Positions 3,056 through 8,604 of a DNA stretch of 64,000 bases are shown here, in pieces (position 1 is the stretch's first letter; each line of letters opens with the position of its first letter). Origin of the DNA: Chloroflexota bacterium (GTDB lineage Bacteria; Chloroflexota; UBA11872). The DNA is taken from positions 1 through 64,000 of the forward strand of contig JAPOWQ010000053.1 of the NCBI GenBank assembly GCA_026707585.1, in the 5' to 3' direction. A model generated the notes under the pieces. It was given only the letters and a program-made list of their open reading frames with translations, was not told the origin of the DNA and searched no databases. The position numbers and the translations under genes were made by a program.

Positions 3056-3886
3056 TTAAGGGGCGGGGACGATGTCGAGGGGGACGGGGTGGGACGTGGT
3101 GCGTTGGTAGAGGGTGGTGAGGGCGGCGTGGCCCTGGGGGCCCATGTTGCGGGTGAGGTCCGTGACGTACATGTCGGTGAAGCGGGTGGTGATGGCTTCG
3201 TCGAGGTCTACGCCGATGGCGCGGGCGTGGGCGAGGGCGCGGGCGGGGTTGGCGCGGGCGTAGTCGATGGAGGCCGCCAGGGCAGCGGCGATGGCGTGGC
3301 ACCAGTCGTCGCCGAGGTCGCGGCGGACGATGTTGATGCCGAGGGGGAGCGGCAGGCCGGTGTCGGCGAACCAGGCTTCGCCGAGGTCGAGGACCTTCGA
3401 AAAGCCGGCCGCGGCGTAGGTGAGCTGGCCTTCGTGGATGACGACGGCGGCCTGGGCGCGACCGTCATTTACGGCGTCGAAGGCCTGGTCGAAGGGGACC
3501 TGGACTGGATGGAAGTTGGGGAGGTACATGCGGGCGAGGCTGAAGGCGGTGGTGTGGGGGCCGGGGACGGCGATGCGGGCGCCGGCGAGGTCCGCAGGGT
3601 CCAGGGGTTGCGGAGCGACGACGACGGGGCCGTAGTTCTCGCCCATGGATGAGCCGCAGGCAGTAATCCGGTAGCGGTGGGCGACGGCGGGGTAGGCGGC
3701 GGCGGAGATCTGGGAGATGTCGAGTTCGGCGGATTGGGCGCGTTCGTTGAGGGACTGGATGTCGTCGTGGACGGCGGTGATTTGGGCGGGTTCAGGACCG
3801 TTGAGGGGGACGAGGCCGGCGGTGAGGGCGTAGAACATGAAGGCGTCGTCGGCGTCGGGGCTGTGGCCGATGGTTAGACGGCGCAT
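3056..3886 (-). CDS. mqnD: 1,4-dihydroxy-6-naphthoate synthase
   Basis: MqnD converts cyclic dehypoxanthinyl futalosine to 1,4-dihydroxy-6-naphthoate in the futalosine menaquinone pathway. The start MRRLTIGHSPDADDAFMFYA matches the conserved family N-terminus. The 276-residue length is normal, although the reading frame continues upstream through non-coding repeat sequence. The segment SMGENYGPVVVA and the periplasmic-binding-like fold pattern support the call. It lies near mqnC, mqnA and mqnE on the same strand, but a repeat-rich gap and a MazG-like gene separate it from them, so it probably has its own promoter. Confidence 0.93.
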   Translation of the reverse strand: MRRLTIGHSPDADDAFMFYALTAGLVPLNGPEPAQITAVHDDIQSLNERAQSAELDISQISAAAYPAVAHRYRITACGSSMGENYGPVVVAPQPLDPADLAGARIAVPGPHTTAFSLARMYLPNFHPVQVPFDQAFDAVNDGRAQAAVVIHEGQLTYAAAGFSKVLDLGEAWFADTGLPLPLGINIVRRDLGDDWCHAIAAALAASIDYARANPARALAHARAIGVDLDEAITTRFTDMYVTDLTRNMGPQGHAALTTLYQRTTSHPVPLDIVPAP

Positions 3887-4198: not shown

Positions 4199-4585
4199 TC
4201 ATTCGAGGCCCCTATGGGCTGGAGGCGTGATCACATCGGCGTAGGCGTCGATGCCCGCCGTAGGGTCACGGCCAAGAACATATGCACTCCCGCGCGCATT
4301 CGAGACTCGGTTGAACTTCCGCGTCACCGCCTTGGCAACATCAATCCCCAACCGGGCCGCCAACAAATCCAGGTAGATCAAGACATCCGCAACCTCATCC
4401 TCGATGTCTGCCATCGAGGGCTGGTCTCCCCGGCGGAGCTTCTTGAGCAGGTTGCAAAGCTCCCCAGTCTCCCCGGCCAGAGCCGTCGCCCAATCATTTG
4501 GCGTCCAACTCATCAAGGGGTGGAACACTTCCTCGCACCGGGCAACATTCACCCGCCGAAGCTGCCCCAACGTCAGATCATCCAC
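4199..4585 (-). CDS. MazG-like nucleotide pyrophosphohydrolase
   Basis: The 128-residue all-alpha protein carries the MazG/dUTPase-like metal-binding pattern. GETGELCNLLKKL near residue 38 is followed by IEDEVADVLIYLD near residue 61, which supplies the acidic residues that bind Mg2+. Such small MazG-like proteins hydrolyse non-canonical or excess NTPs to NMP and pyrophosphate. The start follows a plausible Shine-Dalgarno (GGGAG on the minus strand). It lies between mqnD and mqnC on the same strand, but gaps of about 300 bases on each side suggest independent transcription. Confidence 0.8.
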   Translation of the reverse strand: MDDLTLGQLRRVNVARCEEVFHPLMSWTPNDWATALAGETGELCNLLKKLRRGDQPSMADIEDEVADVLIYLDLLAARLGIDVAKAVTRKFNRVSNARGSAYVLGRDPTAGIDAYADVITPPAHRGLE

Positions 4586-4662
4586 CCGTTACTCCCTCCT
4601 GGCCTGTGCACTTCATGACCGACCAGCTGGCCACTATCGATCTCCGACAACCCGCCTAAATG

Positions 4663-4710
4663 TGTAAACCATGTCTGCGAACGTCTGTTAACCATGTGTC
4701 CGGTCTGGAC
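4663..4710. repeat. Tandem TGT(A/T)AACCATGT motifs, possible solo insertion-sequence end
   Basis: TGTAAACCATGT (4663-4674) and TGTTAACCATGT (4686-4697) are spaced 23 bp apart. They are followed by TCCGGTCTGGACA. Repeated motifs of this kind resemble transposase-binding termini of IS481/IS21-type elements. No transposase gene is nearby, so this would be a remnant. The identification is from memory of such ends, not from a search. Confidence 0.35.
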
Positions 4711-4861
4711 ATCCCCCAGGAGAGGGATTAAGAGGCGGCTGCACATATAAGGACGCGGGGCGTTTTGCAACGGTCTCTCAGGGCAGGTTCCTTCGACGGG
4801 CACAGGGCGGGATGCTTCGACGGGCCCAGGGGGAAAAGAGTGGGATGAAGTCGGGCAAGGT

Positions 4862-5962
4862 TTAGGCGGGGAGGGGGTGGGGGGCGAAGGTTTGGAGGAC
4901 CTGGTAGTGGGTGTCGCGTTGGGCTGGGGTGAAGCCGGCTTCGCGAATCATGGTTTGCATTTCTTCGACGGAGGTGCGCACGTAGTGGCCGGCTTCCTGC
5001 ATGACGTTTTCGTCGAAGAGGGTGCCGCCGAAGTCGTCGGCGCCGAAGTGGAGGGCGACCTGGCCGGTTTTCTTGCCTTCGCTGAACCAGGAGGCGTCAA
5101 TGTGCTCGATGTTGTCGAAGTAGAGACGCGAGGCGGCGATGATGCGGAGGTAGTCGTTGGCCTGGGCGCGGAGGCCGCCGAGCTTGCGGCCGAGGGGGGT
5201 GCCGCCGGGGGCGAAGCTCCAGGGGACGAAGGCGTAGAAGCCGCCGGTTTCGTCCTGCAAGTCGCGGACGCGCTGGAAGTGTTCGACGCGACCGTCCACG
5301 GTTTCGCCGTGGCCGTACATCATGGTGGCGGTGCCGCGAAAACCAACCTGCTGTGCGGCGCGGAGGACGGCGATCCACTCGTCGGCGTTCATCTTGAGGG
5401 GGCTGATGCGATGGCGGTCCTCGTTGGTGAGGATTTCGGCGCCGCCGCCGGGGAGGGTGCGCTGGCCGGCGTCCCAGAGGGCCTGGCAGACCCCCGTGTA
5501 GTCGAGGCCGGAGACCTTGGACATTTCGTAGATCTCGGGGGCGGACCAGTAGTGGGGGGTCATGCCGGGGAAGCGTTCGCGGGTGGTGCGGACCATGTCG
5601 AGGTAGTACTCGAGCGGTAGCTCGGGGTTGAGGCCGCCCTGCATGAGGACGGTGGTGCAGCCCATGGCGGCGGCGGCGGCGACCTGGGTCATCATCTGGT
5701 CGACGGTGTGGGTGTAGGCGTCGTCGGCCTTGCTGGTGTGGGGGCGGTAGAAGGCGCAGAAGGAGCAGTAGGCGTCGCAGAGGTTGGTGTAGTTGAGGTT
5801 GGTGTCGACGACGTAGGTGACGACGTCGCCGGGGTGGCGGCGGCGGCGGACTTCGTCGGCGAGGGCGCCGACTTCGAGCAGGGGGGCGTCGGACAGGAGA
5901 TAGCGGGCGTCGGCGGCGGTGAGGCGGTCGCCGTCGTCGGTTTTTTGGACTATGTGGTCCAT
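4862..5962 (-). CDS. mqnC: Cyclic dehypoxanthinyl futalosine synthase (radical SAM)
   Basis: MqnC is a radical SAM enzyme that cyclises dehypoxanthinyl futalosine. The cluster motif CDAYCSFC gives C62, C66 and C69 when counted from the chosen start MDHIVQKTDD, and it binds the SAM-ligating [4Fe-4S] cluster. Further family segments include GGLNPELPLEYY, TLPGGGAEIL and HYWSAPEI. The upstream in-frame extension is unlike the family. The chosen ATG shares one base with the mqnA stop (TGATG), which supports both the start and translational coupling. The product is 366 residues, as expected for the family. Confidence 0.94.
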   Translation of the reverse strand: MDHIVQKTDDGDRLTAADARYLLSDAPLLEVGALADEVRRRRHPGDVVTYVVDTNLNYTNLCDAYCSFCAFYRPHTSKADDAYTHTVDQMMTQVAAAAAMGCTTVLMQGGLNPELPLEYYLDMVRTTRERFPGMTPHYWSAPEIYEMSKVSGLDYTGVCQALWDAGQRTLPGGGAEILTNEDRHRISPLKMNADEWIAVLRAAQQVGFRGTATMMYGHGETVDGRVEHFQRVRDLQDETGGFYAFVPWSFAPGGTPLGRKLGGLRAQANDYLRIIAASRLYFDNIEHIDASWFSEGKKTGQVALHFGADDFGGTLFDENVMQEAGHYVRTSVEEMQTMIREAGFTPAQRDTHYQVLQTFAPHPLPA

Positions 5963-6723
5963 CACGCTACGCGCTCCACGGCGGTGAGGCGGGCGTCGAG
6001 TTCCTGGAAGTGCTCCAGGCCGGCCCAAGCGGTGTCGTCGAATCGGTAGCTAAAGGTGCGGAGGTAGGTGGCGACGGCGTCGGCGGAGAGGCCGAGGTCG
6101 GGGCGGCGGCGGTGGATGGCCGAGGGATCGGTGAGATTTGTGTCGAGGTTGGCGTTGAAGTAGTCCAGGGTGGCGACGCAGGCGTCGGGCGGCACGTCGC
6201 GGCGGGTCATCCAGGAGGCGAAGACGAAGGGGAGGCCGGTCCAGGCGTGCCATTCGGCGGCGAGATCCAGTTGGTAGGGGTGGGTGTGCCGGTTGCGGCG
6301 CTGCAGAAGGGCTTTGTCGCCGATGAGAAGGGCGGCATCGGCTGGCTGGTCGAGGCCGACGAAGGTGGCCCGGCCGATATCGAAGCGGAATTGCAGGAGG
6401 ACCTTGAGGAGGCGGACGGAGGTGGCGGTTTCGTCGATGACGCCGATGCATGCGTCCGCGAGATCCTCGATGGGAACCGTCGAGCGCACAAACACGCTGC
6501 GGGCGGCGCCGGCGGCGGCAATGCCGAGGCCGCCCACGGGGCGGAAAACGTCGGCGTGATCGAAGGCGGCGACGACGGGGAGGGGCGCGATGTCGACGGC
6601 GCCGAGGCGGGCGAGGTCGATCATGCGGCTGGGCACCTCGACGACGGCGTTGGCCCGGACTTCGTCGTCGGCGAAGAAGGGCTCCGTATTGAGGTACGGA
6701 ATGCGGCCGAGCCTAGGCGTCAT
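5962..6723 (-). CDS. mqnA: Chorismate dehydratase
   Basis: MqnA dehydrates chorismate to 3-[(1-carboxyvinyl)oxy]benzoate, the entry step of the futalosine menaquinone pathway. The 253-residue protein opens with RIPYLNTEPFF, the conserved family N-terminus. It has the two-lobed periplasmic-binding-protein-like fold shared with MqnD. It overlaps mqnE upstream by 11 bases and mqnC downstream by one base, so the three are one transcription unit led by the TetR gene. Confidence 0.92.
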   Translation of the reverse strand: MTPRLGRIPYLNTEPFFADDEVRANAVVEVPSRMIDLARLGAVDIAPLPVVAAFDHADVFRPVGGLGIAAAGAARSVFVRSTVPIEDLADACIGVIDETATSVRLLKVLLQFRFDIGRATFVGLDQPADAALLIGDKALLQRRNRHTHPYQLDLAAEWHAWTGLPFVFASWMTRRDVPPDACVATLDYFNANLDTNLTDPSAIHRRRPDLGLSADAVATYLRTFSYRFDDTAWAGLEHFQELDARLTAVERVA

Positions 6724-7819
6724 ACACCTTCACGACGTCGTAGGTGGCGTTGCGTTCGACGGGGACCTTGTCGGCGGAGCGGATGAGGCGAACCATGCGG
6801 TCGCGCTCGAGGCCGAGCGGGCTGGCAGCGAGGGCGGCGTGGGCGATGCGCTCGGTGCCGATGGTGCCGTCGAGGTCGTCGGCGCCGAAGTTGAGGCCGA
6901 TGGAGGCGGTTTGCTCGCCGCTCATGACCCAGTAGGACTTGATGTGGGGGAAGTTGTCGAGCATGAGGCGGGAGGTGGCGAGGGTGCGGAGGTCGTCGAT
7001 GGGGGAGGCCTGGCGGTCGACGAGGAGGGTGGTGCCGAGCTGGTATTCGAGGGGGATGAAGCAGAGCCAGCCGCCTGATTCGTCCTGGGCCTCGCGCAGG
7101 CGCATGAGGTGGCGGACGCGTTCGCGGTGAGTCTCGATGTGGCCGTAGAGCAGGGTGGCGTTGGTGTGGATGCCCATGGAATGGGCGAGGTGGTGGATCT
7201 CGAGCCAGCGGTCGGCGCCGGCCTTGCCGCGGAATAGCTCGCGGCGGACGCGCTCGGAGAAGACCTCGGCGCCGCCGCCGGGCATAGAGTCGAGGCCGGC
7301 GTCAAGGAGGCGTTCGAGGACTTCACGGTCGGGGATCTTGAAGCGCTTGTGGAAGTAGTCGATCTCGGCGGCGGTGAAGGCCTTGATCTGGACGGCCGGG
7401 CGTTCGGCCTTGATGGCGCGCAGGAGGTCCTCGTACCACTCAAACGGAATGGTGGGGTGGTGACCGCCGACGATGTGGACTTCGTGAACGTCGGGGTGGA
7501 TCTGGCCGATGATCTCGTCGATGGAGTACTCGTAGGCGTGGTCATCGCCGACCTTGGCGGCGAAGTCGCAGAACTTGCAGGAGAGGACGCAGATGTTGGT
7601 GGGATTGACGTGGACGTTGAAGGTGAAATAGACGCGGTCGCCGGAGACGCGACGGGCCGCGGCGTCGGCGATGCGGCCGAGGCCGGTGAGGTCGCGAGTG
7701 GAGAGGCAGGTGAGGCCGTCGTCCTCGGAGAGGCGTTCGCCGCGCTGAGACTTGTCCCAGATTGGTTCGAGGGCCGGGTCGCGAAAGCGGATGGCGGGGG
7801 CGGCTGGGGCTTCAAGCAT
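6713..7819 (-). CDS. mqnE: Aminodeoxyfutalosine synthase (radical SAM)
   Basis: MqnE joins the MqnA product to the adenosyl group of SAM to give aminodeoxyfutalosine. The 368-residue protein carries the radical SAM motif CVLSCKFC (C77, C81, C84). Family segments HIVGGHHPTIPFEWYED, SMPGGGAEVF and HTNATLLYGH are present. It overlaps the TetR gene by 8 bases upstream and mqnA by 11 bases downstream. The next two enzymes of the usual route, aminofutalosine deaminase and futalosine hydrolase MqnB, are not in this window. Confidence 0.94.
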   Translation of the reverse strand: MLEAPAAPAIRFRDPALEPIWDKSQRGERLSEDDGLTCLSTRDLTGLGRIADAAARRVSGDRVYFTFNVHVNPTNICVLSCKFCDFAAKVGDDHAYEYSIDEIIGQIHPDVHEVHIVGGHHPTIPFEWYEDLLRAIKAERPAVQIKAFTAAEIDYFHKRFKIPDREVLERLLDAGLDSMPGGGAEVFSERVRRELFRGKAGADRWLEIHHLAHSMGIHTNATLLYGHIETHRERVRHLMRLREAQDESGGWLCFIPLEYQLGTTLLVDRQASPIDDLRTLATSRLMLDNFPHIKSYWVMSGEQTASIGLNFGADDLDGTIGTERIAHAALAASPLGLERDRMVRLIRSADKVPVERNATYDVVKVYDA

Positions 7820-8456
7820 GGAGGGGCACGCGATCTACCTCGGCGGGGCTGAAGCCCACGCTCTGGAGGAGCAACTGGCGCAGGCTGGGGTAGGAGGCGT
7901 GCAGCGATCCGGCGTCGGGATCGTGCAGCCAGTGGACGGCGACTTCGTTGAGGGCTCCGAACCAGGCGGTGGCGATGAGGTGGGTGTCACAGGGCGGAAT
8001 AGCGCCGATCTCGACGGCGCGGTCTAGCTCGCGTTCGATCAAGTCGGCGAACTGGCGGCGGACGAAGATCAGGTCGTCGCTGAAGGCGCGGCCGGCGCCG
8101 GCGACCTCGATGAGGACGATGCGGGCGAGGGAACGGTGCCGGACGAAGACGTCGATGAGACCCAGGAGGGCGGCATCGAGGCGCTCGGCGGGCGAGTTCA
8201 CGTCGTCCATTTTGCGCTGGATGGAGTTGACCAGTTGGTTGGCCAGTTCGCGCACGAGGGCGCGGAAGATGGCGGCCTTGCTGGGGAAGTGGAAGTAGGC
8301 GGCGCCCTTGGAACGTCCGGCACGGTCGACGATGTCGTCGACGGCGGCGCCGTGGTAGCCCTTTTCGCCGAAGACGTTGAGGGCGGCCTCCAGGAGGGCG
8401 AGGCGGGTCGCGTCTTTGCGGCCGGTTGACGAACGGCGGGGGAGTCGAAGGCTCAT
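7812..8456 (-). CDS. TetR/AcrR family transcriptional regulator of the mqn operon
   Basis: The protein is 214 residues from the chosen ATG (MSLRLPRRSSTGRKD). The N-terminal TetR helix-turn-helix reads AALNVFGEKGYHGAAVDDI with GAAYFHFPSK, close to the family consensus. The C-terminal half is the usual variable ligand-binding domain. An in-frame ATG 19 codons upstream is rejected because it would place the start inside or before the 22-bp operator palindrome at 8466-8487. The gene heads and overlaps the mqnE-mqnA-mqnC unit, so it very probably represses itself and menaquinone synthesis. The ligand is unknown. Confidence 0.88.
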   Translation of the reverse strand: MSLRLPRRSSTGRKDATRLALLEAALNVFGEKGYHGAAVDDIVDRAGRSKGAAYFHFPSKAAIFRALVRELANQLVNSIQRKMDDVNSPAERLDAALLGLIDVFVRHRSLARIVLIEVAGAGRAFSDDLIFVRRQFADLIERELDRAVEIGAIPPCDTHLIATAWFGALNEVAVHWLHDPDAGSLHASYPSLRQLLLQSVGFSPAEVDRVPLHA

Positions 8457-8465
8457 GGGATTAAC

Positions 8466-8487
8466 AAACCGACTGGTCAGTCGGTTT
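8466..8487. promoter_or_regulatory. TetR-type operator palindrome
   Basis: A 22-bp inverted repeat, AAACCGACTG-GT-CAGTCGGTTT, has perfect 10-bp arms. It starts 10 bases upstream of the TetR gene's ATG. The core ACTGGTCAGT is typical of TetR/FadR-type operators. Its position would block transcription or initiation of the tetR-mqnE-mqnA-mqnC unit. Confidence 0.8.
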
Positions 8488-8604
8488 TTACCGGAGGGAG
8501 CTGAGGCTGTCAAGCGGGTAGAGGTTCAATTGGCGATCTGTTTGGCGACGATCCCTCGCCCCAACCCTCCCTAGCAAGAATGGCCCTTGCGTGGTTCGGG
8601 GACA

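Follow-up and report, generated by a model that had tools for sequence, protein, structure and literature searches.

A candidate menaquinone-supply repressor and its operator beside exchanged menaquinone pathways in Chloroflexota

A gene for a TetR-family regulator (tetR) stands at the head of a string of futalosine-pathway (mqn) genes for menaquinone synthesis in a Chloroflexota genome (assembly GCA_026707585.1, contig JAPOWQ010000053.1), of which positions 1 to 64,000, a stretch of 64,000 nucleotides, form the window analysed here. The genes lie on the minus strand (Table 1), where tetR and mqnE overlap by 8 bp, mqnE and mqnA by 11 bp, and mqnA and mqnC by 1 bp; that these genes overlap had been noticed in an earlier reading of the window made from its letters alone (the sequence-only reading). 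Because they overlap, these four genes are very likely to share one transcript. After mqnC come a 276-bp gap, a small MazG-like open reading frame (ORF) and then mqnD; the gene string is thus longer than the span given in the sequence-only reading. MqnE and MqnC score above curated NCBIfam cut-offs and two PF02621 proteins accompany them, so that MqnA, MqnE, MqnC, and MqnD are all present. A classical MenD was not found in the window's genome (assembly 95.6% complete), the best match to the MenD model reaching 74.1 bits against a cut-off of 244.2.

Table 1. Genes and putative regulatory elements of the tetR-mqn locus (window coordinates)
Feature	Position	Strand	Evidence or remark
tetR, TetR-family regulator, 214 aa	7812..8456	-	PF00440 E 1.5e-16 and PF17932; AlphaFold2 model
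mqnE, aminofutalosine synthase	6713..7819	-	TIGR03700 450.1 bits, cut-off 434.55
mqnA (PF02621)	5962..6723	-	PF02621 E 1.8e-40; MqnA rather than MqnD by position after mqnE, as in relatives
mqnC, cyclic dehypoxanthinyl futalosine synthase	4862..5962	-	TIGR03699 442.7 bits, cut-off 428.1
MazG-like ORF between mqnC and mqnD	4199..4585	-	PF12643 E 9.7e-7; operon membership uncertain
mqnD (PF02621)	3056..3886	-	PF02621 E 1.5e-67; comes after mqnC in relatives
Putative operator, 22-bp palindrome, consensus AACCGAC-N6-GTCGGTT	8466..8487	.	Conserved upstream of orthologous tetR genes
-35-like hexamer TTGACA	8508..8513	-	Read from sequence; 17 nt before TAAAAA
Weak -10-like hexamer TAAAAA	8485..8490	-	4/6 matches to TATAAT; 3-base overlap with operator

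Upstream of tetR lies a 22-bp palindrome, AAACCGACTG-GT-CAGTCGGTTT, both of whose 10-bp arms are perfect. The sequence-only reading had described it correctly except for its distance from the tetR ATG, which is 9 bases and not 10. This is the single perfect copy in the 3.9-Mb assembly, every other match having 3 mismatches, and the consensus occurs once in the genome at one or no mismatch; mqnD, for which a second site had been raised as a question, has none but belongs to the same gene string. Among 100 dinucleotide-shuffled versions of the window's upstream region (at most 230 bp), there is no equally good match. The short core ACTGGTCAGT on its own is at background frequency, with 35 matches in the window at two or fewer mismatches and 31 expected. 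The palindrome begins with the last three bases of the -10-like TAAAAA, and a bound protein would therefore lie across the -10 region as well as the start.

How far is this arrangement conserved? A profile of 36 TetR proteins, applied at E 1e-45 or better to 400 evenly drawn Chloroflexota genomes, found 111 carriers, and the locus of each was read. Counts refer to one locus per genome, with categories summed by hand from the locus rows; neighbouring genes were identified by tblastn with named proteins, since antisense frames, numerous in GC-rich DNA, had overwhelmed an automatic clustering of ORFs. Menaquinone genes stand beside tetR in 98 of the 108 carriers whose contig extends far enough (contigs of G036, G362, and G127 end too soon). 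All 22 TetR-carrying genomes of the window's genus, family, and order (f1 and f2) have mqnE directly after tetR, with TetR identity ranging between about 42% and 99%. Futalosine-pathway genes adjoin tetR in 33 of the 111 carriers: these 22, seven of family f39, G067, G326, G314, and G149, the last with only mqnP, mqnM, and mqnL beside it.

In other Chloroflexota, a TetR protein 38-49% identical to that of the window is followed by isochorismate synthase, MenD, MenH, and MenB of the classical (men) route, which has no enzyme in common with the futalosine route before prenylation. At locus L076 all four exceed their curated cut-offs (isochorismate synthase 320 versus 224.75 bits, MenD 478 versus 244.2, MenH 257 versus 208.55, MenB 509 versus 380), and at L081 MenA comes directly after tetR (126 versus 102.15 bits). 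Classical genes adjoin tetR in 59 carriers from 21 families, and the mqn cases come from six (f1, f2, f23, f39, f40, f46); the cells of this comparison are not independent. The description of the regulator as the mqn operon's own is thus right for the window and too narrow for the phylum, where the same TetR and operator front men genes more often (59 versus 33 of 111); the idea that the TetR protein is tied to the futalosine pathway alone was rejected on the strength of this men linkage. In six further carriers (G057, G391, G376, G126, G120, G099) late menaquinone genes and an SsuA-like binding protein stand beside tetR, and in three (G049 and G109 of family f14, and G116) the operator is found in trans before men or menA-like genes.

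Some loci were set aside or reassigned. L087-L089 match the TetR protein over the DNA-binding domain only and L090 has no TetR match; these were treated as outgroup or excluded. L058, titled as Rubrobacter, was considered as spread to Actinomycetota and rejected, since it was equated with G305:C397, in Chloroflexota. In G007 a contig of 4.5 kb (L137, G007:C34) bears MenF and MenD as a pair; this was not accepted as a true MenD for the window's genus because sister genomes have no MenD, and it is probably contamination. Three of the 59 men cases (family f72, L215-L217) have the order tetR-menB-menA with menG divergent upstream, and MenD is absent from all three genomes, an incomplete classical pathway.

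The operator follows the regulator across both pathways. Loci L035-L090 and 16 others were scored, a row passing at two or fewer mismatches in the 14 positions of the consensus. All 21 mqn-linked rows of the window's order carry the site, and thus the palindrome is present upstream of the orthologous operons; comparison of sequences here supports the sequence-only proposal of TetR control through it. Among men-linked rows 28 of 29 pass (L085, the miss, begins inside tetR at a contig end), three further rows being skipped. Over all rows, 7 of 6,500 dinucleotide shuffles reach this threshold. Of 74 later loci, the genomes of whose G-numbered members are partly those of L035-L090, 55 pass; two of the other 19 have no upstream sequence. 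Over the whole comparison, misses include the separate mqn locus of G067 (4 mismatches, though with its own palindrome there) and G057 (5 mismatches), and f10 and f54 carry shifted variants with a common GAC-N6-GTC core. The -35-like hexamer recurs as well: 20 of the 21 mqn-linked rows (counted by eye) have TTGACA at one or no mismatch 25-28 nt upstream of the operator, and such a hexamer lies within 40 nt before it in 25 of 56 rows overall, compared with 9.7% of shuffles.

Where the menaquinone genes lie apart from tetR, the site can be found with them. In both f14 genomes the men cluster has its own operator upstream of menF-D-H-B, with one mismatch in G049 (C7:776) and none in G109 (C155:1346), and the only two perfect matches in the whole of G109 are those at tetR and at the men cluster. 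In G116, which has no menaquinone genes beside tetR, the sole genome-wide match precedes an ORF with a MenA-like prenyltransferase gene after it, whose product scores below the MenA cut-off (61.9 versus 102.15).

Three side observations concern these sites and their surroundings. Many men-linked operators (L030, L065, L066, L086, and others) consist of overlapping ACCGACCGACCGGTCGGTCGGT repeats offset by 4 bp, for example AACCGACCGACCGGTCGGTCGGTT, an arrangement with possible room for two dimers. At G057:C37:1192-1211, just before a TetR paralogue at C37:1252, there is a near-match of the operator. In family f14 (L124 of G049, L171 of G109) a protein of 312-352 aa that weakly resembles MqnE/MqnC (23-27% identity), as a degenerate form might, comes right after tetR, and both genomes use the classical pathway.

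Has the pathway beneath the regulator been exchanged within single lineages? The nine TetR proteins of f39 form one clade (support 99/98) with seven mqn and two men members, the latter branching within the former. The two men genomes have MenD and the seven mqn genomes lack it, the MqnA/MqnD family shows the reverse, and the operator AACAGACCGGCGCGTCGGTT is identical in G193 (men) and in G179 and G123 (mqn). The f10 proteins likewise form one clade (100/99) of three men rows and four rows of the importer type described below, with MenD in the three and absent from the four. In a check of 28 genomes, MenD occurred in 6 and the MqnA/MqnD family in 9; no genome had both, and 13 lacked both. This either/or pattern, together with the swap inside f39, led to the rejection of mixed assemblies as the source of the men and mqn loci.

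The regulator itself is a full-length member of its family. Its N-terminal DNA-binding domain is present (PF00440, 60.4 bits against a cut-off of 24, residues 21-67). The AlphaFold2 model has a mean predicted local distance difference test score of 89.7, and solved TetR structures align with it at Z 18-21 over about 190 residues, consistent with a whole-length, all-helical TetR fold. The closest solved fold is that of Bacillus FadR (Z 21.4, root-mean-square deviation 2.7 over 189 residues, 25% identity), which agrees with the FadR-type assignment of the sequence-only reading. An AWFGA..E....W core in the C-terminal half is invariant in 36 of 36 aligned TetR rows, whether mqn-, men-, or menA-linked.

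The simplest account of the locus is repression, because the palindrome lies over the promoter, the protein has a TetR fold, and the genes overlap. A TetR dimer would bind the 22-bp palindrome over the -10 element and the start of a tetR-mqnEACD transcript, and would so repress its own gene and the menaquinone pathway together. The signal is most likely a late product that the arrangements share, menaquinone or demethylmenaquinone (or the dihydroxynaphthoate core), acting as a feedback co-repressor; end-product co-repression is the usual logic for a biosynthetic operon. A late ligand common to all arrangements would let one regulator persist while the futalosine, men, or precursor-import set is exchanged beneath it. 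On this evidence, we put the probability that tetR encodes a dedicated menaquinone-supply repressor, kept while the pathway under it is replaced and most likely sensing a late common product, at roughly two in three.

The weakest alternative is mere co-location, with the palindrome serving tetR autoregulation only and the mqn genes using a promoter of their own: autoregulation is the commonest role of TetR proteins, but the account is highly improbable given the overlapping tetR, mqnE, mqnA, and mqnC, the operators that both f14 genomes have upstream of men clusters remote from tetR, and the operator before the MenA-like operon of G116.

What does the regulator sense? A ligand must fit every arrangement. 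Futalosine intermediates are absent from men genomes, o-succinylbenzoyl-CoA (OSB-CoA) and 1,4-dihydroxy-2-naphthoyl-CoA (DHNA-CoA) are absent from mqn genomes, the dihydroxynaphthoate isomers differ between the pathways (1,4-dihydroxy-2- versus 6-naphthoate), and chorismate is not the starting point in the importer genomes. The remaining candidates are demethylmenaquinone and menaquinone, prenyl diphosphates, perhaps the core dihydroxynaphthoate, and general metabolites, acyl-CoA being one. The sequence-only reading had named a menaquinone precursor or an acyl-CoA; since the TetR protein and operator front men genes in 59 carriers and mqn genes in 33, a precursor specific to the futalosine pathway is an unlikely ligand. 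An acyl-CoA could fit if it is one of general cellular occurrence.

In the acyl-CoA reading, the regulator would be a FadR-like sensor whose repression is relieved by long-chain acyl-CoA, raising menaquinone synthesis at times when beta-oxidation feeds electrons into the quinone pool; it would still act on menaquinone genes, with fatty-acid status as the signal. Bacillus FadR structures match the window's model at Z 20.8-21.4 with 21-25% identity, the one with stearoyl-CoA ranks first in Foldseek, FadR chains are among the best Protein Data Bank profile matches, and a general acyl-CoA exists under either pathway. The FadR equivalog model NF053878 (Bacillus type), however, scores far below its cut-off (68.9 versus 200 bits; 74-92 in three relatives), menaquinone genes adjoin tetR in 98 of 108 scorable carriers, and the operator is unlike the Thermus FadR site TTRNACYNRGTNYAA as the available text of its source gives it. 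Bacillus FadR has a lipid-sized ligand tunnel, which suits a polyprenyl quinone and an acyl-CoA equally. We regard acyl-CoA sensing as unlikely, if far from negligible.

It is less probable still that each lineage has re-tuned its TetR protein to an intermediate of its own, such as futalosine or dihydroxy-6-naphthoate in the window and 1,4-dihydroxy-2-naphthoate (DHNA) or OSB-CoA in men lineages. TetR ligand pockets readily change. Set against this, the men and mqn proteins of f39 are intermixed in one clade, which leaves little room for re-tuning, and the AWFGA..E....W core does not vary among the aligned rows.

Several observations weigh against a dedicated menaquinone-supply repressor, or against the counts on which it leans. 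The consensus was drawn from rows later scored with it, some of the 74 later loci come from the same genomes, and 22 of the 33 mqn cases belong to the window's own order. In f3, of the window's class, seven of eight TetR orthologues are followed by an ABC (ATP-binding cassette) transporter with no men or mqn gene in reach, the eighth lying at a contig end, and the operator is kept at two or fewer mismatches in only one of seven scorable loci. G019 has mqnEACD, and G043 and G051 have menFDHB, with neither tetR nor site; the regulator is therefore dispensable. No operator precedes mqnD in the seven f39 mqn genomes, where that gene sits apart from the tetR locus, and in G109 the first MenF match comes some 840 bp downstream of the trans site. 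A mechanical consensus promoter scan with stricter rules finds no promoter at the window's operator, listing neither hexamer. The closest solved fold is that of an acyl-CoA sensor, and a quinone as TetR co-repressor is a proposal.

The regulator may also lead to genes for a third route of supply. Six genomes (of f10, f38, and f29; loci L132, L200, L202, and L203 of f10, L192 of G120, and L249 of G099) have neither MenD nor the MqnA/MqnD family and carry an SsuA/NMT1-like binding protein beside the TetR gene and late menaquinone genes, the latter being either menA, in most cases together with menG, or else mqnL, mqnP, and menG. In G120 the order is tetR, mqnL (522.1 versus 495.9), an MqnP-like prenyltransferase gene (TIGR01475, 319 versus 180.8), binding protein, ATPase, and menG; in G099 a divergent binding-protein gene overlaps menA (132.5 versus 102.15). 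The matches of the binding proteins to SsuA_fam fall short of the family cut-off. For the substrate of this putative ABC transporter, dihydroxynaphthoate is an economical guess. The fullest version of the proposal is tentative, and we judge it to fall somewhat short of even odds: a phylum-wide repressor would sense menaquinone or dihydroxynaphthoate and would have been kept through repeated exchange of a futalosine, classical, or precursor-import route, the SsuA/NMT1-like transporter being an importer of a vitamin K2 precursor.

In f3, at loci L120-L122, L126-L128, and L130, an SsuA-like ABC transporter likewise comes after the TetR orthologue, with the operator mostly lost. The f3 genomes G030, G036, G038, and G040, from four genera, have one PF02621 protein and one MqnC/MqnE-type protein each (assemblies 77-94% complete), which may reflect import of an earlier intermediate.

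Two further features of the window lie downstream. The gene hisG, at 2089-2982, comes after mqnD, a pair also present in L039, L040, L045, and L047. The mqnC-mqnD spacer (4199-4861) holds the MazG-like ORF and repeat-like DNA, and its length among close relatives lies between a few bases in L039 and about 780 in L038.

Transcriptional control of menaquinone levels in bacteria is little understood; feedback is known, according to the available text of one report, as allosteric inhibition of MenD by DHNA (PMC9835592). A regulator retained above two exchanged, unrelated pathways points to the sensing of something common to both. The operator and TetR protein can serve as bait for missing menaquinone genes, including the candidate precursor importer in genomes without either pathway, and they offer a possible basis for a menaquinone biosensor. 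In the open-licence literature (subscription papers being outside the scope), neither a menaquinone-dedicated TetR protein or regulon nor a menaquinone-precursor importer was found. A paper on the evolution of the futalosine pathway reports mostly classical genes in Chloroflexi genomes and, in its available part, is silent on TetR (PMC3914697).

Among known systems, FadR (YsiA) of Bacillus, an acyl-CoA-responsive TetR protein, is alike in whole-length fold, but the genes adjacent to tetR here are mostly menaquinone genes rather than those of beta-oxidation. PfmR (TTHB023) of Thermus thermophilus has, in the available text, a site TACCGACCGNTNGGTN with ACCGAC half-sites in common with the window's operator at shorter spacing (PMC7022988); its structure (3vpr) matches in fold as well, though less closely than FadR (TM score 0.58-0.62 by query length), and its targets are fatty-acid and phenylacetate genes, unlike the menaquinone genes here. 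In Mycobacterium tuberculosis and Staphylococcus aureus, DHNA inhibits MenD, so that a late metabolite restrains classical menaquinone synthesis (PMC9835592, available text). The restraint by a late metabolite is similar to that proposed here; by contrast, it acts by enzyme allostery, with no DNA-binding regulator and in the classical pathway only. The overlapping men-linked repeats resemble a QacR-type double operator, whereas the window has one palindrome only. TetR autorepressors as such are familiar; the new element here is the retention of one across the exchange of non-homologous pathways.

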